A DNA stretch of 48,274 nucleotides, from NCBI GenBank assembly GCA_027064585.1, contig JAMOPI010000016.1:1-48274 (forward strand), given 5' to 3'. This DNA is from Candidatus Desulfofervidaceae bacterium. Its GTDB lineage: Bacteria; Desulfobacterota; Desulfofervidia; Desulfofervidales; Desulfofervidaceae. The translations under genes and the position numbers were made by a program. The stretch's first letter is position 1; each line of letters begins with the position of its first letter. Below, in pieces: positions 7,106 to 17,732 of the stretch. The notes beneath the pieces were generated by a model that did no database searches, was not told the DNA's origin, and saw nothing but the letters and a program-made list of their open reading frames with translations.

Positions 7106-8593
7106 ATGGCGATGGATGTTTATTATAACCTTAATAAGGCCGTCAGCAAGTGGGGAGACAAATTGGCCTTGTGGTCATCAGAAAGGAAATTGCGTTTTAC
7201 GGACTTAGAGCAGGCGGTAAAGGCATTTGCCCAAGCATTAGTCCAAGCTGGCTTCCAACCAGGAGATCGACTCGTTATATGGTCATGGAACGATGTGGCC
7301 GCGGCGGTGGCAATGCTTTCAGCCTGGTGTCTTAAAGGGATCGTTGTCCCCTTGGATGCCGGGACCAAGGCTAGTGATGTGGCCGGGCTTATTCAGCACG
7401 CTGAGGCCAAATTTTTACTTACACCGCCAAGAAAGGAAGAAACCCTGGCCGAGATTAAAAGCAAGGTAGATAAACTTAAAATCTTTTTTCTAAAAGATGT
7501 CTTTTGTGCCCCTTCTGTTTCTAAGTTAGAGTTCCCCTCTATGGATGAAACGGCACCGGCCATTATCCTTTACACCTCTGGCACCACTGGCACCCCTAAA
7601 GGCGTGCTTTTGACCTACCGCCATTTGGACTCCCCAGTTATGACCATAGATTACTTTCAATATGTTGCCCCAAACGATATCTTTTTGGGCACCGTGCCCT
7701 TTTCTCACTTAGGTGGCATTGTTGGGCTTTTATTTCTTATTACCTTTGGCACTCCCCTCATTGTCTTAGAACGATTCATCCCTAAACTTTTTTTAAAATA
7801 TATCGCCCAACACAAAGTAACAGGCTTCTTTGTTCCGCCTACTATCCTTCAAACCATTCTCTTGCAAAAGAACTTAGACCCGAGTGTCTTAAAAAGTGTG
7901 CGTTGGATTGCCTCCTTTGGTGCACCGTGTCCACCGGCCTTGCTTAAGGACCTTGCAGAAAAGTTTCCCTGGATTGATCTCGTCACTGGCTACGGCTTGA
8001 GTGAATCGGCTGCACCCAATGTGCTCATGCCTCCTGGATTACCTTTAGAAAAAAAGCTTAAGCCAGGTATCCTAGGCAAGCCGGCCCCGTGGGTGAAAAT
8101 AAAGATTGTTAACGATCAAGGAGAAACATTGCCTACAGGTGAAATTGGAGAAATTCTGCTTAAAGGCTGGTTTATTATGGCAGGTTATTATAAGGCCCCA
8201 GAGCTGACCAAAGAGGTCATCAAAGACGGCTGGCTCTATACCGGCGATTTGGGCTATCTGGACGAAGAAGGCTTTTTATACATCACTGGACGTAAGAAAG
8301 AGACTATCATTGTTGGCGGCCTTAATGTCTATGCCAATGAAGTAGAATTTGTGATTCAGGAACATCCAGGCGTGGCTGAGGTGGCCGTAGTCGGAGTGCC
8401 TGACGGTATCAGGGGAGAAACAGTCAAGGCAGTGATTGTGCCCAAGCCAGGTTATAACCTAACGGCGCAGGAGATTATTAATTTCTGCCGCAGACGTCTA
8501 GCCTCTTATAAGTTGCCCAAGATTGTAGAGTTTCGGGACAGTTTACCTCGGACGAGTTCAGGTAAGATTGCCAAGGCACAGTTACGCGCATGA
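7106..8593 (+). CDS. AMP-forming acyl-CoA synthetase / ligase
   Basis: A 495-residue member of the acyl/aryl-CoA synthetase (ANL) superfamily, which activates a carboxylate as acyl-AMP and usually transfers it to CoA or a carrier thiol. Core motifs are all present: phosphate loop YTSGTTGTPKG at residues 156-166, GYGLSE near 295, TGD with the ribose-binding aspartate at 381, GRKKETIIVGGLNVYANEVE, and the C-terminal catalytic lysine K487 in SSGKIAK. Length is normal for the family. The first ATG has only a weak ribosome site; the ATG two codons later is an alternative. It is first in an operon with an RND exporter and lipid-binding proteins, so a fatty or other lipophilic acid is a likely substrate, but specificity cannot be read from sequence. 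Confidence 0.88.
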   Translation: MAMDVYYNLNKAVSKWGDKLALWSSERKLRFTDLEQAVKAFAQALVQAGFQPGDRLVIWSWNDVAAAVAMLSAWCLKGIVVPLDAGTKASDVAGLIQHAEAKFLLTPPRKEETLAEIKSKVDKLKIFFLKDVFCAPSVSKLEFPSMDETAPAIILYTSGTTGTPKGVLLTYRHLDSPVMTIDYFQYVAPNDIFLGTVPFSHLGGIVGLLFLITFGTPLIVLERFIPKLFLKYIAQHKVTGFFVPPTILQTILLQKNLDPSVLKSVRWIASFGAPCPPALLKDLAEKFPWIDLVTGYGLSESAAPNVLMPPGLPLEKKLKPGILGKPAPWVKIKIVNDQGETLPTGEIGEILLKGWFIMAGYYKAPELTKEVIKDGWLYTGDLGYLDEEGFLYITGRKKETIIVGGLNVYANEVEFVIQEHPGVAEVAVVGVPDGIRGETVKAVIVPKPGYNLTAQEIINFCRRRLASYKLPKIVEFRDSLPRTSSGKIAKAQLRA

Positions 8594-10896
8594 TGGATAA
8601 GAGAATTGCCCGGGTTATTATTCGGTTTCGGTATCTAGGACTTATCTTGCCCCTTTTGCTTTGTGGCATAGGACTATGCCTTGCCTGGAACATTAAGATA
8701 GAGAGCCGCCACATAGAGTTTATCCCCACCAAACATCATTTTATCAATGTCCAAAAGCAACTTAACCAACTCTTTGGCGGGCTTAATCGGGTGAACATTG
8801 CCATCGTTGCCAAGCAGGGAGATATTCTTTGCCCGGATATTTTAGAGAGGGTACAGGGCATTGCCGAGGACATTCAGCTTTTAGATGAGGTCAATCCCCG
8901 TCGGGTTTATTCCATCTTTGCCCACAGTGTAAAGGATATAGAAATCCAGCCTGATGGTTTTTCAGTGCACCGTCTGATCCGGGAAATTCCTAAAACACCT
9001 AAAGAAATCGCCATTTTAAAGGAAAAGATCCGCCACAATCCCCTTGTTTATGGTCCGCTTGTTTCCAAGGATTTTAAGGCCACGCTTATCCAAGCCGATT
9101 TTTATGAGGATGTTCCCTCTGCCAAGATTTATCAGCAGATAAAAGAAATCGTGCATAAACACGCCTCTGCCCAAATGGAAGTCTATTTAAGCGGCTATCC
9201 CATTCTGGAAGGCTTTATTGATGCCCATCTTTCTTTTATCTTTTATGTCTTTGCCTTTGCCTTAGGCATTATCCTTTTCCTTCTCTTCTTGGCTTTCCGC
9301 AAAAAGCGGGGCTTTTTATTACCCCTTTTGGCCGGCACCATCTCGGTCATCATTAGCCTGGCTGGCATTAACCTTTTGCACTACCGCCTCAATCCCTTCA
9401 CCATCCTCATACCCTTTCTCATCTTTATTCTGGCCATTAGCCACAGCATTCAGTTTATGGAACGTTACTTTGAAGAAAGTCATGTACAAACAGACAAACA
9501 AAAAGTCGCTCTTAATGTCCTTTCCTCCCTTTTAAGCCCTATTCGTGCCTCTCTCTTCACTGACTTTTTAGGCTTTGCCTCTTTGATCTTCATTCCCATC
9601 CCGGCCATCCACAGCATTGCCATTTTGGGCAGCTTAGGGGTCTTAAGTATTTGGCTTAGCGTGGTTATCTTTCTGCCTGCCTGTTTTGCCATCTTCCCTT
9701 TGCCCCGTTTTAATAAGGATAAAAACAATAACCTGCGCTTTACCTTACTTCTTTTGCGGCAGTTTACCAAACTCTGGCAGAACAAAAGAGGAATCTATGT
9801 GGTACTAGTCCTGTTTGTCCTGCTCTTTGCAGTTTCCCTCTATGGTATGAAACACATTGTTGTGGGAGAGATAGAACCAGGCACTTCTATTCTCTATCGG
9901 GACGCCCCTTATAATGTAGCCAAACGCAAGATTAATACATATTTTGGTGGTTCAACCCCTTACTATGTACTGGTAGAGGCCAAAAGACCAGAAGGGCTTT
10001 TAAAGGCAAAGGCAATGCAGGAAATAGATACTCTTGAAACCTATTTAAGGACACACCTTAAGGAGGCCGGCTATAGTCTCTCGGTGGCCGATTATATCAA
10101 ACTTATGAACCTGGCCATCCAGCACAAGTTCTGTGTGCCGAAAAAGGATCAAACCATTGGTGAATACATCTTTCTTTACGAAAGCAATGCCTTCCCAGGC
10201 GAGTTTGACGCCATTATTACCCCTGACCATCGCTATGCCAATATTAGACTGGACTTAAAGGACTGTAAGGGCACAACTATTGCAAAGGTTATAGAGCTTA
10301 CCGCCACCTGGTTAAAAAAGTTCCACCATTTTAAGGGAATGCGGTTTGATTATGCCGGTGGTCCTATCGGTGTCCTTGGGGCAACCAATGATATTATTAA
10401 AAACGGGCTTTTAGAGAATATGCTTATCTTAAGCGTGCTCATTTTCATTCGTATCTGTTTGGCCTTGCGTTCTTTAAGTGGTGGCTTGTTCTTGTTTGTT
10501 CCCTTGACCTTCAGTATCGTCCTGACCTTTGGTAGTTTTGGCCTTTTTCATATACCCTTTACCATTGCCACCCTGCCGGTAGCGGCCATGGGAACAGGCT
10601 TAGGGATAGACTATTCCATTTATCTGGCCTCCCGTATCAAGGAAGAACGGCAGAAGGGATATGCTTTGCCTATGGCCATCAATAAGGCGGTATTTACTTG
10701 CGGCCAAGCGGTCTTTTTCACTGGGAGCATCCTGACCATTGGCGTATGGTCTTGGATGTTTTCTAATCTCAAGCTTCAGGCCAAGCTGGGAGGCACACTT
10801 GGTGGGTTGCTCTTGTTTAACATGCTCGCTGCCCTGATTGTATTACCAGTGTTTGTCTTATTGGTTAAACCAAGCTTTTTAAAGGAGAAAAAGTGA
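8590..10896 (+). CDS. MMPL/RND-family exporter (HpnN-like)
   Basis: A 768-residue inner-membrane protein with the duplicated RND layout: one N-terminal helix, a large periplasmic loop, a bundle of helices (about residues 210-375), then the same pattern again (helix near 400, second loop, bundle about 610-765). The MMPL signature is clear in the second half: GMGTGLGIDYSIYLASRIKE. Such proteins (MmpL, HpnN) export lipids or other hydrophobic compounds using the proton gradient. It overlaps the ligase stop by ATGA, so it is translationally coupled. With the LolA-like protein and the barrel at the operon end it could form an inner-membrane to outer-membrane lipid route. The substrate is unknown. 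Confidence 0.85.
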   Translation: MMDKRIARVIIRFRYLGLILPLLLCGIGLCLAWNIKIESRHIEFIPTKHHFINVQKQLNQLFGGLNRVNIAIVAKQGDILCPDILERVQGIAEDIQLLDEVNPRRVYSIFAHSVKDIEIQPDGFSVHRLIREIPKTPKEIAILKEKIRHNPLVYGPLVSKDFKATLIQADFYEDVPSAKIYQQIKEIVHKHASAQMEVYLSGYPILEGFIDAHLSFIFYVFAFALGIILFLLFLAFRKKRGFLLPLLAGTISVIISLAGINLLHYRLNPFTILIPFLIFILAISHSIQFMERYFEESHVQTDKQKVALNVLSSLLSPIRASLFTDFLGFASLIFIPIPAIHSIAILGSLGVLSIWLSVVIFLPACFAIFPLPRFNKDKNNNLRFTLLLLRQFTKLWQNKRGIYVVLVLFVLLFAVSLYGMKHIVVGEIEPGTSILYRDAPYNVAKRKINTYFGGSTPYYVLVEAKRPEGLLKAKAMQEIDTLETYLRTHLKEAGYSLSVADYIKLMNLAIQHKFCVPKKDQTIGEYIFLYESNAFPGEFDAIITPDHRYANIRLDLKDCKGTTIAKVIELTATWLKKFHHFKGMRFDYAGGPIGVLGATNDIIKNGLLENMLILSVLIFIRICLALRSLSGGLFLFVPLTFSIVLTFGSFGLFHIPFTIATLPVAAMGTGLGIDYSIYLASRIKEERQKGYALPMAINKAVFTCGQAVFFTGSILTIGVWSWMFSNLKLQAKLGGTLGGLLLFNMLAALIVLPVFVLLVKPSFLKEKK

Positions 10897-11798
10897 AAAA
10901 TCCCCTTGCCTTTCCGGTACGCTATGAAGAAGGGGTGATCTTGGTGCTGGACGAAACGGCCCTGCCCTTTGCCGAGGAGTATATCCCTATACGCACCTTA
11001 GATGAGGCGGTTATGGTTCTAAAGGAGATGAAAACCAGGGCCTTTGGTCAGGTCTTGCTTTATTTTTACACCTGTGTTTTAACCCAGGACATTATGGGCA
11101 CGGCCAGGGTTTTTCAGCAAACGCGTCCAACCTTTGATTTCTACGGCCTCGCTGGCATGCTAGCTGAGGTAACCAAAAGGGCAGGAGACATTAAGGCAGC
11201 CGTGGAAAGAATTGTCTCTGCCTTTGAGGAAAAACGCAGACAAAGGGCCAGGCAGGTAGCAGAAATTTTACCTGCAGATGCCCATGTCCTTACCATTTGC
11301 CATGTCAGTGGAGAGATGGTCTATATCGCCGAGGCCATACAGGCAATGCAAAAAAGGATTTGTGTATATGTTTCTGAGACAAGACCATATCTACAGGGAA
11401 CAAGGCTTACCTTCTGGGAGTTAAACCGGGCGGGGGTTCCGGCTAAACTGCTATGTGACAACCAAGCGGCCTGGTTGATGCACACAGGTAGAATAAATGC
11501 AGTGATTACAGGTTCTGACCGCTCTAACCAGAAGGGAGACATCATAAACAAAGTTGGCACCTATGCCCTGGCCCTGCTGGCAAGGCATTATCATATCCCT
11601 GTCTATGTCCTCATCCAGCGGCCGGCAGAGATGGATTTAAGGAAGGTGCAGATAGAAGAGCGACCAGAAAAAGAGGTGTTTATGTGGCTTAAGAAGAGAA
11701 ATAAATGGCCGCCGGCCGTTTATCCGGCCTTTGACTTCACGCCTGCAGAACTGATTACCGGCTGGTTTGATATTGAGGGGAAAGTAAGGAAAAAATGA
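10893..11798 (+). CDS. MtnA/eIF2B-like sugar-1-phosphate isomerase
   Basis: A 301-residue protein of the eIF2B-alpha/MtnA/ribose-1,5-bisphosphate isomerase superfamily. MtnA isomerises 5-methylthioribose-1-phosphate (and 5-deoxyribose-1-phosphate) to the ribulose form. Catalytic positions are kept: C136 in LTICHVSG and D209 in ITGSDRSNQKGDIINKVGTY. Substrate-binding blocks also match: TRPT, SETRPYLQGTRLTFWEL, and LLCDNQAAWLM. It is somewhat shorter than typical MtnA. It starts with GTG (AAAGGAG just upstream), overlapping the exporter stop. Together with the phosphorylase and class II aldolase in this operon it supplies the middle step of a phosphorylase-isomerase-aldolase route for a 5-substituted deoxyribose. 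Confidence 0.8.
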   Translation: MKNPLAFPVRYEEGVILVLDETALPFAEEYIPIRTLDEAVMVLKEMKTRAFGQVLLYFYTCVLTQDIMGTARVFQQTRPTFDFYGLAGMLAEVTKRAGDIKAAVERIVSAFEEKRRQRARQVAEILPADAHVLTICHVSGEMVYIAEAIQAMQKRICVYVSETRPYLQGTRLTFWELNRAGVPAKLLCDNQAAWLMHTGRINAVITGSDRSNQKGDIINKVGTYALALLARHYHIPVYVLIQRPAEMDLRKVQIEERPEKEVFMWLKKRNKWPPAVYPAFDFTPAELITGWFDIEGKVRKK

Positions 11799-12232
11799 GG
11801 CTAGATGAGATAACAAGGCTCAGTTTAATTTGGGGGGTACCGGCAGAGTTTAAAGGATTAAAGGGCAAATTTTTGCTTGTGCCGGAGATGCGGCCTTATC
11901 TTTTAGGCCTTTCTTTATGTGAAGAGCTAAAAACGCATGGCTGTCCTCATGTTTATGTAACCGATAACATGCTCGGTTATTTGTTTTTTAAGGGAAAAAT
12001 CAAAGAAACCCTTTTGTTTTATCTAGAAAGAAGAACTGCTGAAATTAAGGGCATCAGTGGAAGTCTTTATGTAACCCTTTTAAGCAAATTGCACCAAGTA
12101 CCTGTATATTTTTGTCCAGGAAAGAAGCCAGACATTGTCAATGATAAACATGCTGGCACACTTGACGGCAGATCGTTTGTAGAAGATGAGAAATCCGTTA
12201 TCTGGCCAGAGGAGGAAATAATAAAAATCTGA
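11795..12232 (+). CDS. Degenerate half-length paralogue of the MtnA-like isomerase
   Basis: A 145-residue protein coupled to the preceding gene by ATGA. Its sequence aligns with the C-terminal half of that neighbour: EMRPYLLGLSLCEELKTHG against ETRPYLQGTRLTFWELNRAG, VTDNMLGYLFFKGKIKETL against LCDNQAAWLMHTGRINAVI, and KLHQVPVYFCPG against RHYHIPVYVLIQ. The catalytic GSDR...NKVGTY block is replaced by a stretch lacking the aspartate, and the N-terminal helical domain is absent. It is thus probably non-catalytic. Dimerisation with the full-length partner, as between eIF2B subunits, is an inference. The frame is open and in the operon, so it is not an obvious pseudogene. Confidence 0.7.
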   Translation: MRLDEITRLSLIWGVPAEFKGLKGKFLLVPEMRPYLLGLSLCEELKTHGCPHVYVTDNMLGYLFFKGKIKETLLFYLERRTAEIKGISGSLYVTLLSKLHQVPVYFCPGKKPDIVNDKHAGTLDGRSFVEDEKSVIWPEEEIIKI

Positions 12233-12249
12233 CTTAAGGAGGTATAACC

Positions 12250-13716
12250 ATGCGCGTTTTGTTTTTGCAACCGCCCCTTGGCTGGTGGGCCGTGTGGAAA
12301 AGGCACATTGCTAACAATGTTGCTCATGCCCAGCTGGCAGCCAATATCAGAGAGTGGTACCCAGAGATTGAGGTCAAGGTGTTAGATGCCAGGGCCTTAG
12401 GTATGGATGAGAAACAGATGCTAGATGCGATTGTGGAAATCAATCCTGATCTTATCTACATGGGTGATGCCCTGCAAACTACCGGTGTGGCCGCCATTCA
12501 TCCCCGTTATCAACATGCAGCTAAGTTAATCAAGCAGGTATTGCCAAAGGTTAAGATTTGCGTAGGTGGGTTCTTTTATGGGGCCAATGCGCCAATGATG
12601 CTTGAAAAGACGCCAGAATTTGACTTTGTAGTTGCCGGTGAAACTGAACGCACCGTCCCAGAGTTGGCCAAGGAATTAAGCAAAAGAGATCCAGACATCC
12701 CTTCTATTAAAGGCTTGGCCTATCGGGACAAATACGGGGAGGTAAAATTAACCGCATATCGTCCTCTCATTGAAAATCTAGACGATCTCCCCTTACCGGC
12801 CTATGACCTTTTCCCCATGGACAAGTATGTGGGCTTTAACTACCTCAAGCACTATGTAGAAACTTATATGAGCAGGGGTTGCCCTAATGGCTGTCGGTTT
12901 TGTGTAGGCTGGACAAATTACGACCCCAGGGGAAACAAGGACTGGACACACTATCGCTATCGCTCGCCCGAACGTATGGCTGAAGAAATGGAGCTTTTGG
13001 TAAAAAAATACGGGGCCAAGTTTATCTGCATGATGGATGAAGATTTAAATGTCTACCGCGAACGGATGGAGGGACTGATAGAGGAACTGCGCAGGCGCAA
13101 CTTGAAGGTGCCCTTTTTCTTCATGGGTCGAGCACCATATCATCTGCGGGATCGGGACCTGCTTAAGCCCCTGCGGGAAGTAGGCTTTGTCTGTGGTCTC
13201 TTTGGCATGGAGGCCGTAGATAAAAAGACCCTGGAGGCCATCAAAAAGGGCACAACGGTGGATGAAGTAGCTGAGTTGGTGCAACTCTTTCGGGAAAACA
13301 ACATTGTATCAGTTATTACTTGGATGGTAGGGTTTCCTGAAGACGATGAGATGAAAATTAAGGATCGGATAGAACGTCTAAATTTGATAGATCCAGACAT
13401 GGCCGCCCTGCAAATCATGACACCTTTGCCAGGTATTCCTATGTATAAACAGCTTGAGCCATTAGTAGAGGATTGGGACCTAAGAAAATGGGATTTTCAA
13501 CATGCCGTTATCCGCACCAAGTACCTCTCGCGAGAAGACCTGGCAAGACTTGCGGCCTGGGCCAACCGGGAGTTTTATAGCAAACCTGGACGGGTGCAGC
13601 GTATCCTTTATTACAAGGGCTATCATCCCTTCTGCCGGTTGATTGCTAGAACATATGTAGAGACAGCAGGTAAAGAACACGCCCAAGCGGCCGTAGAAGA
13701 TAAAATCTTTGTGTAA
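12250..13716 (+). CDS. B12-binding-domain radical SAM enzyme
   Basis: A 488-residue radical SAM protein. The first about 150 residues form a Rossmann-like B12-binding domain (MRVLFLQPPLG, DLIYMGDALQTTG, KICVGGFFYGANAP, FDFVVAGETERTVPELA) without the DxHxxG lower-ligand motif. The radical SAM core follows, with cluster cysteines C211, C215 and C218 in CPNGCRFC, then a GLFGMEAVDKKTLEAIKKGT strand-helix and TWMVGFPEDD. Such enzymes (HpnP, class B methylases, lipid-modifying homologues) usually act on unactivated carbons. A strong Shine-Dalgarno (AAGGAGG) precedes the ATG. Reaction and substrate are unknown. Neighbours suggest a lipid and a deoxyadenosine-derived product or by-product. Confidence 0.85.
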   Translation: MRVLFLQPPLGWWAVWKRHIANNVAHAQLAANIREWYPEIEVKVLDARALGMDEKQMLDAIVEINPDLIYMGDALQTTGVAAIHPRYQHAAKLIKQVLPKVKICVGGFFYGANAPMMLEKTPEFDFVVAGETERTVPELAKELSKRDPDIPSIKGLAYRDKYGEVKLTAYRPLIENLDDLPLPAYDLFPMDKYVGFNYLKHYVETYMSRGCPNGCRFCVGWTNYDPRGNKDWTHYRYRSPERMAEEMELLVKKYGAKFICMMDEDLNVYRERMEGLIEELRRRNLKVPFFFMGRAPYHLRDRDLLKPLREVGFVCGLFGMEAVDKKTLEAIKKGTTVDEVAELVQLFRENNIVSVITWMVGFPEDDEMKIKDRIERLNLIDPDMAALQIMTPLPGIPMYKQLEPLVEDWDLRKWDFQHAVIRTKYLSREDLARLAAWANREFYSKPGRVQRILYYKGYHPFCRLIARTYVETAGKEHAQAAVEDKIFV

Positions 13717-13729
13717 AGGAGAAGGATAA

Positions 13730-14458
13730 ATGATGCAGAGAGATGTGCACTTGACCGCAAAGGATTTGCTTATGTCTATGCAGTTTAAGCCAGGGGACTT
13801 TGGCAAAATTGCCGTCATCAGTGGTCAGCCCCAGCGGGTACAGATGGCCTTAGAAAAGCTTAAAAACCCCATGCGCAACTTCAGTGCCTTTGGGTATACC
13901 CTTTGGACGGGTGAATATAAGGGCAAACGGGTAACGGTAGGACATGGGGGAATGTATGCCCCTGATGCCGCTTTGATTACCGAGCTTCTCTGTGTCGGAG
14001 GGGTAGAGTATCTTATTCGGCTTGGCAGTTGTGGGGCCATGACAAAAGAAATAGGGATTGGTGATTATGTCATTGCTAAAGGCGCAATAAGAGGTGATGG
14101 GGTAACGAGATATTATGTAGACGATGACTTTGTACCCTATGCCGATAAGACATTAACGACTAAACTGGCAGAAACCTGCAAAAAGCACACTCATTTAGGC
14201 ATGATCTGGACAACCGATGCCATCTTGCGGGAAACAAAGGAGATAGTCAATGATGCCATTGCCAAAGGGGCGATTGCGGTAGACATGGTTACAAGCCCTT
14301 TTTTGACCATTGCCCAGCTTTATGGGAAGAGGGCCTGTGCCCTTTTGGTGGTAACGGACAACCTCATTACTGGTGAAATTGGTTTTGCCGATATTCGGGT
14401 CTTTGACGCCGAAAGAAGGATGATTGAACGGGGATTTGATCTAATAAGGGAGATATGA
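13730..14458 (+). CDS. Purine/uridine-phosphorylase-family nucleoside phosphorylase
   Basis: A 242-residue member of the PNP/UDP/MTA-nucleosidase superfamily, which splits the glycosidic bond of nucleosides with phosphate or water. Markers: AVISGQPQRVQMALEKL (the GxPxRV phosphate loop), VGHGGMYAPDAALITELL, LIRLGSCGAM with the phosphate-binding arginine, and VDMVTSPFL in place of the usual MExxxL ribose-binding segment, followed by VVTDNL. The unusual DMVTS may reflect a modified ribose. HpnG, which deadenylates adenosylhopane, belongs to the same superfamily. AAAGGAG precedes tandem ATGs at 13730 and 13733. Placed between the radical SAM gene and the aldolase, it probably releases adenine from a 5'-deoxyadenosyl product (inference). 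Confidence 0.8.
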   Translation: MMQRDVHLTAKDLLMSMQFKPGDFGKIAVISGQPQRVQMALEKLKNPMRNFSAFGYTLWTGEYKGKRVTVGHGGMYAPDAALITELLCVGGVEYLIRLGSCGAMTKEIGIGDYVIAKGAIRGDGVTRYYVDDDFVPYADKTLTTKLAETCKKHTHLGMIWTTDAILRETKEIVNDAIAKGAIAVDMVTSPFLTIAQLYGKRACALLVVTDNLITGEIGFADIRVFDAERRMIERGFDLIREI

Positions 14459-15408
14459 TGAAGGCGATAAAACAAGAACTCATCTTTTGGGGACGGATGC
14501 TTTATGAAAGGGGACTCCTTTGTGGAAGCTCTGGGAATATCTCAAGACGCGTGGAGGACAGAATCTTTATCACTGCCCATGGGAGTTATCTGGGTTTTCT
14601 TAAGGAAGAGGACATTGTTGTGCTTGATGTAAAAGGTAATCTGCTAGAAGGAAAAAAAGGAGCCACCTCAGAAACACCGCTTCATCTAGCCATTTATCAG
14701 CAGTTTCCTGAAAAGACAATTATCTTACATGCCCATTCTCCTTATACAGTGCATTATTTTAATCAATATCCTTGGCTTGAGCCCATTACCTTTGAGGAAA
14801 GGCTTTATCTAGGCATTATTCCAGTCGTACCTCAATATACACCCATAGTGACCAAGCTAGAGCCTGTACTAGAAGCCCTAGAGAAAAACGACATTGTGGT
14901 TTTGAAAAATCACGGTGTAGTGGCCATTGGCAATGAGTTTAAAAAGGTCTTTTCCCTGATTGAACTTTTGGAAACTAATACCAAGTTGGCCTTTTTAACT
15001 GGCCGAAAACCAAAAGAAAGAATGCTTAAGCCGGTTACTCATGTCTTATTTTCTCCTGAACATCTTTCTGCCCTAAGGGGAAGGGTAAATCAAGATAAAG
15101 AGATGCAAAGGCTTGGAGAAGAATATGGATTTACTACGATTTTAGGTCTTCTTACAGAAGGAAAAGAACTTTCTTTCTTCTTTGAAAAGGGTCAGATTGT
15201 AGATGTAAAAGAAGGAACAGAAAAAGCTACCTTTGTCTTCAGCGCTAAGGAAAGAGTGTGGCGGTGGGTCTTTAAGGGTGAGGTAGATCCTTTTTCCGCC
15301 TTCTTTCAGGGGAAGATTGAACTTAAGGCTGATTTTCGTCAGCTCATGCAGTGGTTTCCTGTGTTTGTGCGTTTATTTACCCTTTGGCAAGAAATAGGAG
15401 TTTTATAG
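14455..15408 (+). CDS. Class II aldolase fused to SCP2-like lipid-binding domain
   Basis: A 317-residue two-domain protein. Residues 1-200 are a class II (fuculose-1-phosphate-type) aldolase: GSSGNISRR near the start, catalytic E73 in SETPLH, zinc ligands H92 and H94 in LHAHSPYTVH, and H153 in KNHGVVAIG; E73, H92 and H94 sit at the same numbers as in E. coli FucA. Residues about 220-315 look like an SCP2 sterol-carrier domain: LSFFFEKGQIVDVKEGT, TFVFSAKERVWRWVFKGEVD, AFFQGKIELKAD. This fusion would place a lipophilic substrate next to an aldolase site. The SCP2 assignment is by pattern only. The gene overlaps the phosphorylase stop. Aldolases of this class (DrdA/Ald2) cleave 5-deoxyribulose-1-phosphate to DHAP and an aldehyde. 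Confidence 0.78.
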   Translation: MMKAIKQELIFWGRMLYERGLLCGSSGNISRRVEDRIFITAHGSYLGFLKEEDIVVLDVKGNLLEGKKGATSETPLHLAIYQQFPEKTIILHAHSPYTVHYFNQYPWLEPITFEERLYLGIIPVVPQYTPIVTKLEPVLEALEKNDIVVLKNHGVVAIGNEFKKVFSLIELLETNTKLAFLTGRKPKERMLKPVTHVLFSPEHLSALRGRVNQDKEMQRLGEEYGFTTILGLLTEGKELSFFFEKGQIVDVKEGTEKATFVFSAKERVWRWVFKGEVDPFSAFFQGKIELKADFRQLMQWFPVFVRLFTLWQEIGVL

Positions 15409-15421
15409 AAGGAGGGGAAAA

Positions 15422-16297
15422 ATGAAACGGTGTTTATTATTTTTCATTTTATTGATCCTTTGGCCAATAGCGAGTTTTAGTGGCAGTATTTCTCATTGCC
15501 GACCTGCCCCTCTGCCTCTCAATCCGACCCTAGATCAGATTATGAAACGCTGGTATGAGATCAAGTTTACACGCTTTGCCGACGATGTCATCTATGATGA
15601 GTGTAAGGTTGTGATGGTAGACCGCTCTGGTTTTAAGCGGGAAAAGATTTCTGTGCGCAAAAGAATCATCTTGCACGGTAAGCATGGATATGACTACAAG
15701 GACTTGGTCATGATTACCTATCCTGAATACACCAAGGGACTAGCCGTGCTCACCTGGGCTTATACGGATATTCACAAACAAAACGATATTTGGCTTTGGC
15801 TGCCTTCTATGAAAAAGGTGCGTAAGGTCTCCCAGTCAGAAGAAGATGACTCCTTTTTAGGGACAGAATTTACGGTAGAGGATATAAGCACCCGGCGTTA
15901 CGGCTATGAAACCTACCAGCTTTTGGGCGAGGAGAGGTTTCAAGGCTACACCTGCCGCTACAATAACAAGACCTATTTTGCCGGCACTCCCTGTTATAAA
16001 ATCAAAGCTGTGCCTAAGCGGAAGAATTGGTATTACGCCTATCGCATTCTATGGATAGACAAAAAGACCGGGGTGGATATCTTTGAAGAATTCTATGACA
16101 AACGGGGACGGAAGTTTAAGGAAATTTTCCGTTATTTGGAGACACCAGAAAATGGTTGTTGGACAACCCGCATCTGGGAGGTCTACAACTATCGTACCGG
16201 ACATAGAGACACGATCATCATTAGTCCGGCACGGTATAATACTGGTCTTAAAGAAAGAGACTTTTCTCCCCGTATCTTAGAAAGAATGGAATGGTAA
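15422..16297 (+). CDS. Outer-membrane lipoprotein-sorting (LolA-like) protein
   Basis: A 291-residue exported protein with a signal peptide (LLFFILLILWPIASFSG). It matches the LolA-like family found next to RND exporters: ALTWAYTDIHKQNDIWLWLP in essence, then MKKVRKVSQSEEDDSFLGTE and FTVEDI, and further beta strands ending in RDFSPRILERMEW. LolA-fold proteins carry acyl chains across the periplasm. Good AGGAGG upstream; 13 bases after the aldolase and 13 before the barrel gene. In context it is the likely periplasmic carrier between the MMPL exporter and the outer membrane. Confidence 0.8.
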   Translation: MKRCLLFFILLILWPIASFSGSISHCRPAPLPLNPTLDQIMKRWYEIKFTRFADDVIYDECKVVMVDRSGFKREKISVRKRIILHGKHGYDYKDLVMITYPEYTKGLAVLTWAYTDIHKQNDIWLWLPSMKKVRKVSQSEEDDSFLGTEFTVEDISTRRYGYETYQLLGEERFQGYTCRYNNKTYFAGTPCYKIKAVPKRKNWYYAYRILWIDKKTGVDIFEEFYDKRGRKFKEIFRYLETPENGCWTTRIWEVYNYRTGHRDTIIISPARYNTGLKERDFSPRILERMEW

Positions 16298-16310
16298 AAG
16301 GAGGAGAACG

Positions 16311-17732
16311 ATGCGCAGGTGGGGTGTATTTATCGGTCTCCTATTCTTTTGGGCAACGCTGGCCCAGGCCTCTATTTACCGCGGACACGGTGTTACGATA
16401 GAAGGGTCCTTAAAGAATGAAACGGGCGTTTATCTGGATGATGTAGGTAAGTTTATAAAGATTATGGACATTATTGACCTTAAGGGACAATACCGGGCAA
16501 CAGATTATCTGTCTCTTTTTGTGCACATCAATAAGTTCTGGGATCACGCCTATAATGTAGAAGATGACTATGCTTTAGCCCGACATGCCATGTATACCAA
16601 CCGCCAGACTTGGACCGGTATTAGCTGGGTCAGAGAGCTTTATTTGGACTACTTCTCTGACTATGTAGACGTACGTTTGGGTAAGCAGATTGTTACTTGG
16701 GGGGCGGCTGACGGGATTCGGATCTTAGACCAAGTAAATCCTTTAGACTATCGCGAATTTACCCTGAAAGACTGGAATGAAATCAAAATTCCCCTTTGGA
16801 TGCTTAAGTTAGAAGTAGCACCAACCGTTAATGGAAGTCTTCAATTTCTCTTTATTCCTGACTTTGAACCAAACTTTTTACCCCCAGCAGGTGCCCCCTT
16901 TGCCTTTAAGACCGCTGAAATAGCGGCTCAGAATTATGCCCAGTTAGAAAACTATGGCTATCATGTCGTTACGGAAGAAGATCGTCCGGCCGAAAAGTTT
17001 GGCAATGCCAAATTTGGAATGAGATGGCGAGATGTAGTTGCCGGCTGGGAGTATAGTCTAAACTACCTTTATGGCTGGAATATGAATCCAGAAACTTATG
17101 TTTGGGTAGATACAAGCACCATGGTTCTACCCCCTCCACCTGTACCTCCAGGTTATCCTCCTATAGGCTCTACCTATCACTTTGTCAAAAAATACAGCCG
17201 TATTAATCTTTGGGGTGGGTCTTTCTCTAAGAGTTTGGTAAGTGGCTTTTTTCAAGGGCTTACAATCAGAGGAGAATTTGCCTATTTAAAAGATGTTCCT
17301 GTAGCATATTATGATGCACAAGGACGTCTTGCCTATACTAAGACTGACCAGTTCAAATATGTCATTGGTTTAGATAAATATGTCATCACCAACTGGCTTT
17401 TCAGCTTTCAGCTCATCCAGCTTATTAATAGTCAAAAGGATTATCACGGCTATAAATTCCTTTTACCCTCAGGTGGACCAATGGATAAGGTAGCAACCTA
17501 TTTGACTTTAAAAATTTCTACTGACTTCTTTCATGAAAGGTTAAAACCAGATATTTTAATTATTTACGGTGATGACAACGAATGGCGTCTCAGTCCAAGG
17601 GTTTATTTTGAGATAAATGACCATATTACCACTACTATTGGCATGCATATCTTTGTAGGTAAAGAAAGCGAGCTTTATGGAGAGTTTAACGATGTAAACG
17701 AGTTTTATCTAGAATTGAATTACAGTTTTTAA
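16311..17732 (+). CDS. Outer-membrane beta-barrel protein (DUF1302-like)
   Basis: A 473-residue protein with a signal peptide ending in LAQA, then alternating amphipathic strands to a terminal aromatic residue (FYLELNYSF), as expected for an outer-membrane barrel recognised by the BAM complex. The conserved block VRLGKQIVTWGAADGIRI followed by DQVNPLDYREF resembles DUF1302/alginate-porin-like proteins that occur with MMPL exporters and LolA-like partners. A proline-rich loop lies near residue 270. It closes the operon; its stop overlaps by 4 bases with the convergent ruvX stop. Likely the outer-membrane component of the export route (inference). Confidence 0.75.
   Translation: MRRWGVFIGLLFFWATLAQASIYRGHGVTIEGSLKNETGVYLDDVGKFIKIMDIIDLKGQYRATDYLSLFVHINKFWDHAYNVEDDYALARHAMYTNRQTWTGISWVRELYLDYFSDYVDVRLGKQIVTWGAADGIRILDQVNPLDYREFTLKDWNEIKIPLWMLKLEVAPTVNGSLQFLFIPDFEPNFLPPAGAPFAFKTAEIAAQNYAQLENYGYHVVTEEDRPAEKFGNAKFGMRWRDVVAGWEYSLNYLYGWNMNPETYVWVDTSTMVLPPPPVPPGYPPIGSTYHFVKKYSRINLWGGSFSKSLVSGFFQGLTIRGEFAYLKDVPVAYYDAQGRLAYTKTDQFKYVIGLDKYVITNWLFSFQLIQLINSQKDYHGYKFLLPSGGPMDKVATYLTLKISTDFFHERLKPDILIIYGDDNEWRLSPRVYFEINDHITTTIGMHIFVGKESELYGEFNDVNEFYLELNYSF

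Follow-up and report, generated by a model that had tools for sequence, protein, structure and literature searches.

Why should a B12-binding radical S-adenosylmethionine (SAM) enzyme share an operon with a nucleoside phosphorylase, a sugar-phosphate isomerase and an aldolase (together, the module)? The question is raised by positions 7106-17732 of the window, by which we mean the whole stretch of 48,274 nucleotides analysed here, contig C16 of genome G000 (Candidatus Desulfofervidaceae; 1.92 Mb, 38 contigs). Nine open reading frames (ORFs) were confirmed in this interval. All are on the + strand, neighbours overlap by 4 bases or sit 13-17 bases apart, and a convergent gene comes after the run. 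Domains were assigned by Pfam and NCBIfam profile searches. These assignments and the ORF positions bear out the nine coupled genes and the families that a sequence-only reading of this DNA had named.

We propose, tentatively and as somewhat less than an even prospect, that the ribose of SAM supplies a two-carbon building block here. The B12 radical SAM enzyme would adenosylate a hydrophobic polyketide or lipid, X. A re-tuned, recruited dihydroxyacetone phosphate (DHAP) shunt would then lead to X-CH2-CHO, and often to the coenzyme A (CoA) thioester X-CH2-CO-CoA. This would be a general device in anaerobic bacteria, shared by Omnitrophota, in polyketide operons, and Desulfofervidaceae, in operons for outer-membrane export. 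For the broader statement, that the radical SAM enzyme makes a nucleoside-type product which the module trims in a biosynthetic route, protein sequences and gene context point to an even chance.

Conservation of the gene set

The nine-gene arrangement is more than chance, because the same genes turn up together in four further members of the family and, beyond it, in another family of the order and in a different phylum. A module-type isomerase was found in 10 of 297 genomes sampled from the phylum, the window's own included. These isomerases are about 37% or more identical to that of the window, and their scores are clear of ordinary MtnA. G157, G205 and G270, each with a second MtnA match that looks ordinary, were entered as module-less in this count. 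When the neighbourhoods of nine relatives were compared, those of the family retained the window's genes, and an aldehyde dehydrogenase followed the aldolase in five of the nine.

A scan of named genomes in GTDB returned 80 loci. About 45 of these hold the module, whole or, at contig ends, partial; the others carry an ordinary MtnA without it. The hosts are Candidatus Omnitrophota and metagenome-assembled genomes (MAGs) labelled Desulfofervidaceae, Deltaproteobacteria, Proteobacteria or, in one case, just 'bacterium'. The best named relative is a Candidatus Desulfofervidaceae MAG whose isomerase is 72% identical to that of the window. The recurrent core, present at about 50 loci in genomes of Omnitrophota and of Desulfobacterota type, consists of the B12 radical SAM enzyme, the phosphorylase, the MtnA-like isomerase (often with a small partner), an aldolase-SCP2 fusion, a CoA ligase (in the clusters of most relatives) and often an aldehyde dehydrogenase. 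The last of these is usual in the wider clusters and absent from the window and its sister species. Seven of the eight genomes without a phosphorylase at the module encode one elsewhere that is 56-61% identical. All seven displaced genes adjoin DUF2621-type and ApbA-like genes, which are otherwise members of polyketide-type clusters.

The gene set is real and widely conserved. Lack of conservation as a unit had been named beforehand as a ground for giving up the sequence-only reading, and the unit is conserved across phyla. No description of it was found in the literature searched.

The radical SAM enzyme and its link to the module

The radical SAM enzyme (488 aa; 12250..13716, +) has PF04055 and PF02310 domains, and its CxxxCxxC motif is found in CPNGCRFC. 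The nearest named B12 radical SAM family is BchE, the anaerobic Mg-protoporphyrin cyclase (PMC13142503). True BchE membership was rejected, as the score to TIGR02026 is 222 bits and the curated cut-off of 481 is not reached; the gene neighbourhood also differs. BchE-like and MtnA-like matches in non-phototrophic genomes may belong to this gene set.

At E<=1e-70 the window-type family is present in 12 of the 297 phylum genomes. It occurs in all 10 that have the isomerase and in 2 of the 287 others (Fisher p 5e-17, a value that overstates the independence of the cases because the genomes are related). The radical SAM enzyme and the module also co-occur in four genomes where they are unlinked.

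Active sites of the module enzymes

The purine-nucleoside-phosphorylase-like enzyme (242 aa; 13730..14458, +) matches PNP_UDP_1 and stays below the equivalog cut-offs for deoD (102.6 vs 232.25 bits) and uridine phosphorylase (92.7 vs 280.3 bits). True DeoD membership was rejected on this score. The AlphaFold2 model is confident (predicted local distance difference test, pLDDT, 91) and has 5'-methylthioadenosine phosphorylase and purine nucleoside phosphorylase (PNP) as its nearest solved structures. Residues were compared in 35 cluster proteins with E. coli PNP numbering, with E. coli DeoD and Udp as reference rows and with the residue roles generally given for E. coli PNP. The cluster proteins fill 36 rows, two of them taken by the window's own protein. 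The phosphate-site Arg24 and Arg87, Ser90 (Ser/Thr) and the purine-site Asp204 are kept in all 35, which makes the phosphorolysis of a purine nucleoside plausible. In the same 35 proteins Glu181, the ribose-binding glutamate of the EME motif, is Val or Ile, Glu179 is Asp, and the phosphate-binding Arg43 is Met, Leu, Phe or Ala. The glutamate change is also visible in alignments to the solved structures 1xe3, 2ac7 and 1jds, and the arginine change in those to the two PNP structures among them. Solved relatives that phosphorolyse adenosine or methylthioadenosine retain the ribose glutamate.

The MtnA-like aldose-1-phosphate isomerase (MtnAL, 301 aa; 10893..11798, +) scores 133.7 bits to the IF-2B/MtnA-like profile and 166 bits to TIGR00512. 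The cut-off of the latter is 279 bits, and true MtnA membership was rejected. The equivalents of the catalytic and phosphate-binding residues Cys160, Asp240, Arg51, Arg94 and Gln199 and of the Asn-Lys pair are retained in 47 of 47 cluster isomerases. Every one of the 47 has R(A/S)xGQ in place of RGAPAIG, and in all of them a shorter loop follows the catalytic Cys.

The truncated protein encoded next (MtnAs, 145 aa; 11795..12232, +) had been labelled a degenerate paralogue of the isomerase, a label that does not hold. Its IF-2B score is 22.1 bits (cut-off 22.4), and a profile-profile comparison with MtnAL by hhalign gave a probability of 96% and an E value of 2e-9. In one lineage MtnAL and MtnAs are fused in a single 508-aa ORF (L041:9926-11449). 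Sequence comparison indicates that MtnAs is probably a non-catalytic partner of the isomerase. A decayed pseudogene was considered and rejected, because the protein is conserved and is fused to the isomerase in that lineage.

The class II (fuculose-type) aldolase-SCP2 fusion (ALD-SCP2, 317 aa; 14455..15408, +) has both PF00596 and PF02036 above cut-off. The metal-binding His triad and the catalytic Glu are retained in 46 of 46 cluster aldolases, and SCP2 is above the Pfam cut-off in all five that were scanned (that of the window and four others). The aldolase part of the AlphaFold2 model (pLDDT 95) matches FucA and the 5-deoxyribulose-1-phosphate aldolase 6btd/6btg.

Proposed reaction sequence

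The product of the radical SAM enzyme would most likely be a 5'-deoxyadenosyl adduct of the hydrophobic compound X. The phosphorylase would take adenine off and leave a 1-phosphate, and the isomerase with its partner subunit would convert this aldose-1-phosphate to the ketose-1-phosphate. The aldolase, with SCP2 holding the greasy end, would cleave the latter to DHAP and X-CH2-CHO. The aldehyde could next be oxidised to X-CH2-COOH in most clusters, which have an aldehyde dehydrogenase, and the AMP ligase could form the CoA thioester; the ligase may instead activate another acid. In clusters of the window type the product would be exported by the MMPL transporter, the LolA-like protein and the DUF1302 protein. 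We infer the adenosylation, the nature of X, its binding by SCP2, the direction in which the module runs, the oxidation and ligation at its end, and the export. Since the window genus lacks the aldehyde dehydrogenase, formation of the acid and of the CoA thioester does not extend to all clusters.

Such a route would add two carbons drawn from SAM and not from malonyl- or acetyl-CoA and, as far as we know, would be the first case of a B12 radical SAM enzyme that adenosylates. It would also give a concrete lead to an exported lipid or polyketide in two groups. One is Desulfofervidaceae, in whose named genus there are partners of archaea that oxidise methane; the other is Omnitrophota, few of which have been cultured.

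Comparison with known pathways

The futalosine pathway (MqnE/MqnB/MqnC) offers a general parallel. A radical SAM enzyme adds an adenosyl group and part of the ribose stays in the product, as is proposed for the cluster. The enzymes differ, and the window genome has its own futalosine hydrolase elsewhere.

The sequence-only reading named chemistry that fits these genes: phosphorolysis, isomerisation and aldol cleavage to DHAP and an aldehyde. The enzyme order, phosphorylase, isomerase, aldolase and dehydrogenase, agrees with that of the DHAP shunt and even better with that of the fluoroacetate pathway. The latter, encoded by fl and nob genes in Streptomyces cattleya and Nocardia brasiliensis, carries 5'-fluoro-5'-deoxyadenosine to fluoroacetate (PMC3999930). 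By analogy the proposed order of steps is precedented there: a 5'-substituted 5'-deoxyadenosine, a phosphorylase, an MtnA-type isomerase, an aldolase and, at the end, an aldehyde dehydrogenase, to give X-CH2-COOH with X = F. Unlike the fl/nob genes, the cluster has a B12 radical SAM enzyme, the ALD-SCP2 fusion, a second isomerase subunit and export or polyketide genes around it. No fluorinase was noticed among the recurrent ORF families of the clusters, although no search aimed at PF01887 was made.

In the DHAP shunt, or 5-deoxyribose salvage, 5'-X-5'-deoxyadenosine gives X-CH2-CHO and DHAP, with X = H or SCH3, by way of an isomerase and a class II aldolase (PMC6079011, PMC10986504). A dedicated shunt of this kind for 5'-deoxyadenosine is the alternative that survives best, and we consider it unlikely. 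The radical SAM enzyme would here methylate or oxidise its substrate and set 5'-deoxyadenosine free; the module would relieve product inhibition by forming DHAP and acetaldehyde, with acetate and acetyl-CoA to follow. In favour of this, the steps come in the order known for the shunt, 6btd/6btg is among the closest solved aldolases, and the module tracks one radical SAM family. Unlike the known shunt, the cluster has no kinase, its substrate-site residues are changed, its aldolase bears SCP2, and a second candidate shunt is encoded in the same genome.

Outside the window, G000 encodes a PNP and an amidohydrolase of the 5'-methylthioadenosine/5'-deoxyadenosine deaminase type (below its cut-off) on C18, a canonical MtnA on C3 (440 bits vs a cut-off of 279) and a class II aldolase without SCP2 on C10. 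By sequence these are a candidate separate salvage set for 5'-methylthioadenosine and 5'-deoxyadenosine, and the set in the window therefore looks like a second, diverged one. A second MtnA-type match is present in every module genome of the 297-genome sample. The phosphorylase has also lost, in all 35 cases, the ribose glutamate, which solved relatives active on adenosine or methylthioadenosine keep. The recycling of 5'-deoxyadenosine had been one of two branches of the sequence-only reading. It is disfavoured by the separate candidate set, the family-wide changes in the phosphorylase sugar site and the isomerase loops, and the SCP2 domain of all aldolases scanned. The other branch, an adenosyl adduct that is then processed, fits better. 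Its word 'lipid' is narrower than the evidence, since the export genes are not part of the core and many clusters carry a type II polyketide operon.

Other readings of the module

Several observations weigh against the adduct route. Without Glu181 and Arg43 the phosphorylase could be suited to a modified sugar instead of a long 5' substituent, or be weakly active. The co-occurrence counts are not phylogenetically independent, with six of the ten module genomes from one order. In G004 and G023 the radical SAM enzyme adjoins a glycyl radical enzyme (in G023 a fragment at a contig end); G004 has, of the module, ALD-SCP2 alone, and no module gene was found in G023 at the thresholds used. No aldehyde dehydrogenase orthologue was found in the window genus or in one Omnitrophota genome whose cluster is of the window's type. 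We know of no B12 radical SAM enzyme that adenosylates, and BchE, the nearest named relative, is an oxidative cyclase (PMC13142503).

Some of these points would suit a module that acts on another nucleoside or sugar phosphate, such as a ribose-modified adenosine or an imported nucleoside, while the radical SAM enzyme serves a different step of the same pathway, for example by C-methylating or oxidising the polyketide or lipid. The altered positions Glu181, Glu179 and Arg43 are on what we take, from general knowledge of E. coli PNP, to be the 2'/3'-hydroxyl and phosphate side, and not on the 5' side alone. Among radical SAM families the nearest ones methylate or oxidise, and the enzyme adjoins a glycyl radical enzyme in G107 as well as in G004. 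We regard this reading as quite unlikely, since co-occurrence as tight as that observed, unlinked cases included, is less expected if the enzymes act on separate molecules.

It is very improbable that the module runs in reverse, in which case the aldolase would condense a lipid or polyketide aldehyde with DHAP, and a long-chain 5'-substituted adenosine would then be built by the isomerase and phosphorylase for export. Each of the three reactions can in principle be reversed, nucleosides are favoured at the phosphorylase equilibrium, and the window genus lacks the aldehyde dehydrogenase; yet the aldehyde dehydrogenase and CoA ligase of most clusters would consume the aldehyde in the forward direction.

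Genomic contexts and the remaining genes of the operon

The clusters fall into three types. Type A, found in the window and some Omnitrophota, comprises the ligase, the MMPL transporter, the radical SAM enzyme, the module, the LolA-like protein and DUF1302. Type B occurs in Omnitrophota and in one other family of the window's phylum, and has the module after a type II polyketide operon. The polyketide genes encode a ketosynthase, a second ketosynthase without the active-site Cys, a ketoreductase-like short-chain dehydrogenase/reductase (SDR), a PF04199 cyclase, a polyketide-cyclase-like protein and an amidohydrolase; an acyl carrier protein is present in one type B locus (L080). In the third type isomerase and partner form a fusion, and a separate locus encodes the radical SAM enzyme with SDR, flavin adenine dinucleotide (FAD) oxidase, PqqC-like and methyltransferase genes. 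Locus L045 is a mixture of types A and B, and G038 and G107 each have a type A module locus plus a separate polyketide locus. In a tree of 39 radical SAM proteins the context types cluster, with 7 changes vs a mean of 19 after shuffling.

The first gene of the operon encodes an AMP-binding acyl-CoA ligase (495 aa; 7106..8593, +; PF00501/PF13193), with PRK06187 as its best NCBIfam match (402 bits, cut-off 476). Three genes form the export arm. The MMPL/RND-type (MMPL/HAE3) transporter (768 aa; 8590..10896, +; PF03176) is below the cut-off of TIGR00921. The LolA_like/DUF1329 lipid-carrier-type protein (291 aa; 15422..16297, +; PF17131, 136.8 bits) has a hydrophobic N-terminus, and the DUF1302 protein (473 aa; 16311..17732, +; PF06980, 82.5 bits) is a predicted outer-membrane protein. 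The sequence-only reading had taken the export genes as a sign of a lipid-linked substrate. They lie outside the conserved core, and many clusters have the polyketide operon instead. The MMPL transporter is mostly confined to type A, and export genes were rejected as part of the core as they are absent from most polyketide-type clusters and from the Deltaproteobacteria-type clusters.

A hopanoid pathway was also considered. The radical SAM enzyme, the nucleoside phosphorylase and the MMPL-type exporter resemble HpnH, HpnG and HpnN as these are generally known. Unlike HpnH, HpnG and HpnN, the radical SAM enzyme is B12-type, the phosphorylase scores 33 bits to HpnG (cut-off 187), and the transporter scores 72 bits to HpnN (cut-off 751), so that true HpnN membership was rejected. 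A search of G000 and 13 other module genomes for squalene-hopene cyclase (PF13249) gave no match in G000 or in 12 of the others. The absence of a hopene cyclase, noted earlier for the window, thus extends to its whole genome, and the hopanoid reading was rejected because no such cyclase was found in 13 of the 14 module genomes.

Further observations

A scan for promoters and terminators gave counts no better than in shuffled sequence. In one relative the LolA-like gene is a tandem duplicate (L037:4537-6302). Elsewhere in G000 an SCP2-less class II aldolase is close to a divergent PNP_UDP_1 protein (L135:2027-3794).

The unlinked radical SAM locus of the third type is exemplified by L127:10074-15934, with the SDR, FAD oxidase, PqqC-like and methyltransferase genes. 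At its module locus this genome encodes a CCG/4Fe-4S protein, which may partner the oxidase. At L131:293-5110 in G004 a window-family radical SAM enzyme stands beside a glycyl radical enzyme and its activase, with no isomerase module adjoining. The polyketide locus of G107 (L128:2915-18149) carries an aldehyde ferredoxin oxidoreductase-like gene, then a glycyl radical enzyme, an activase and a second window-clade radical SAM enzyme.

In Candidatus Omnitrophota, L074:867-15629 combines the module and a B12 radical SAM enzyme with a type II polyketide operon that encodes two paired ketosynthases, an SDR, cyclases and an amidohydrolase. It includes a member of a 130-aa protein family (L074:7913-8302) that is conserved in 14 clusters. 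A class IV aminotransferase-like gene lies between the amidohydrolase and the isomerase in four Omnitrophota clusters (L053:9177-9986).

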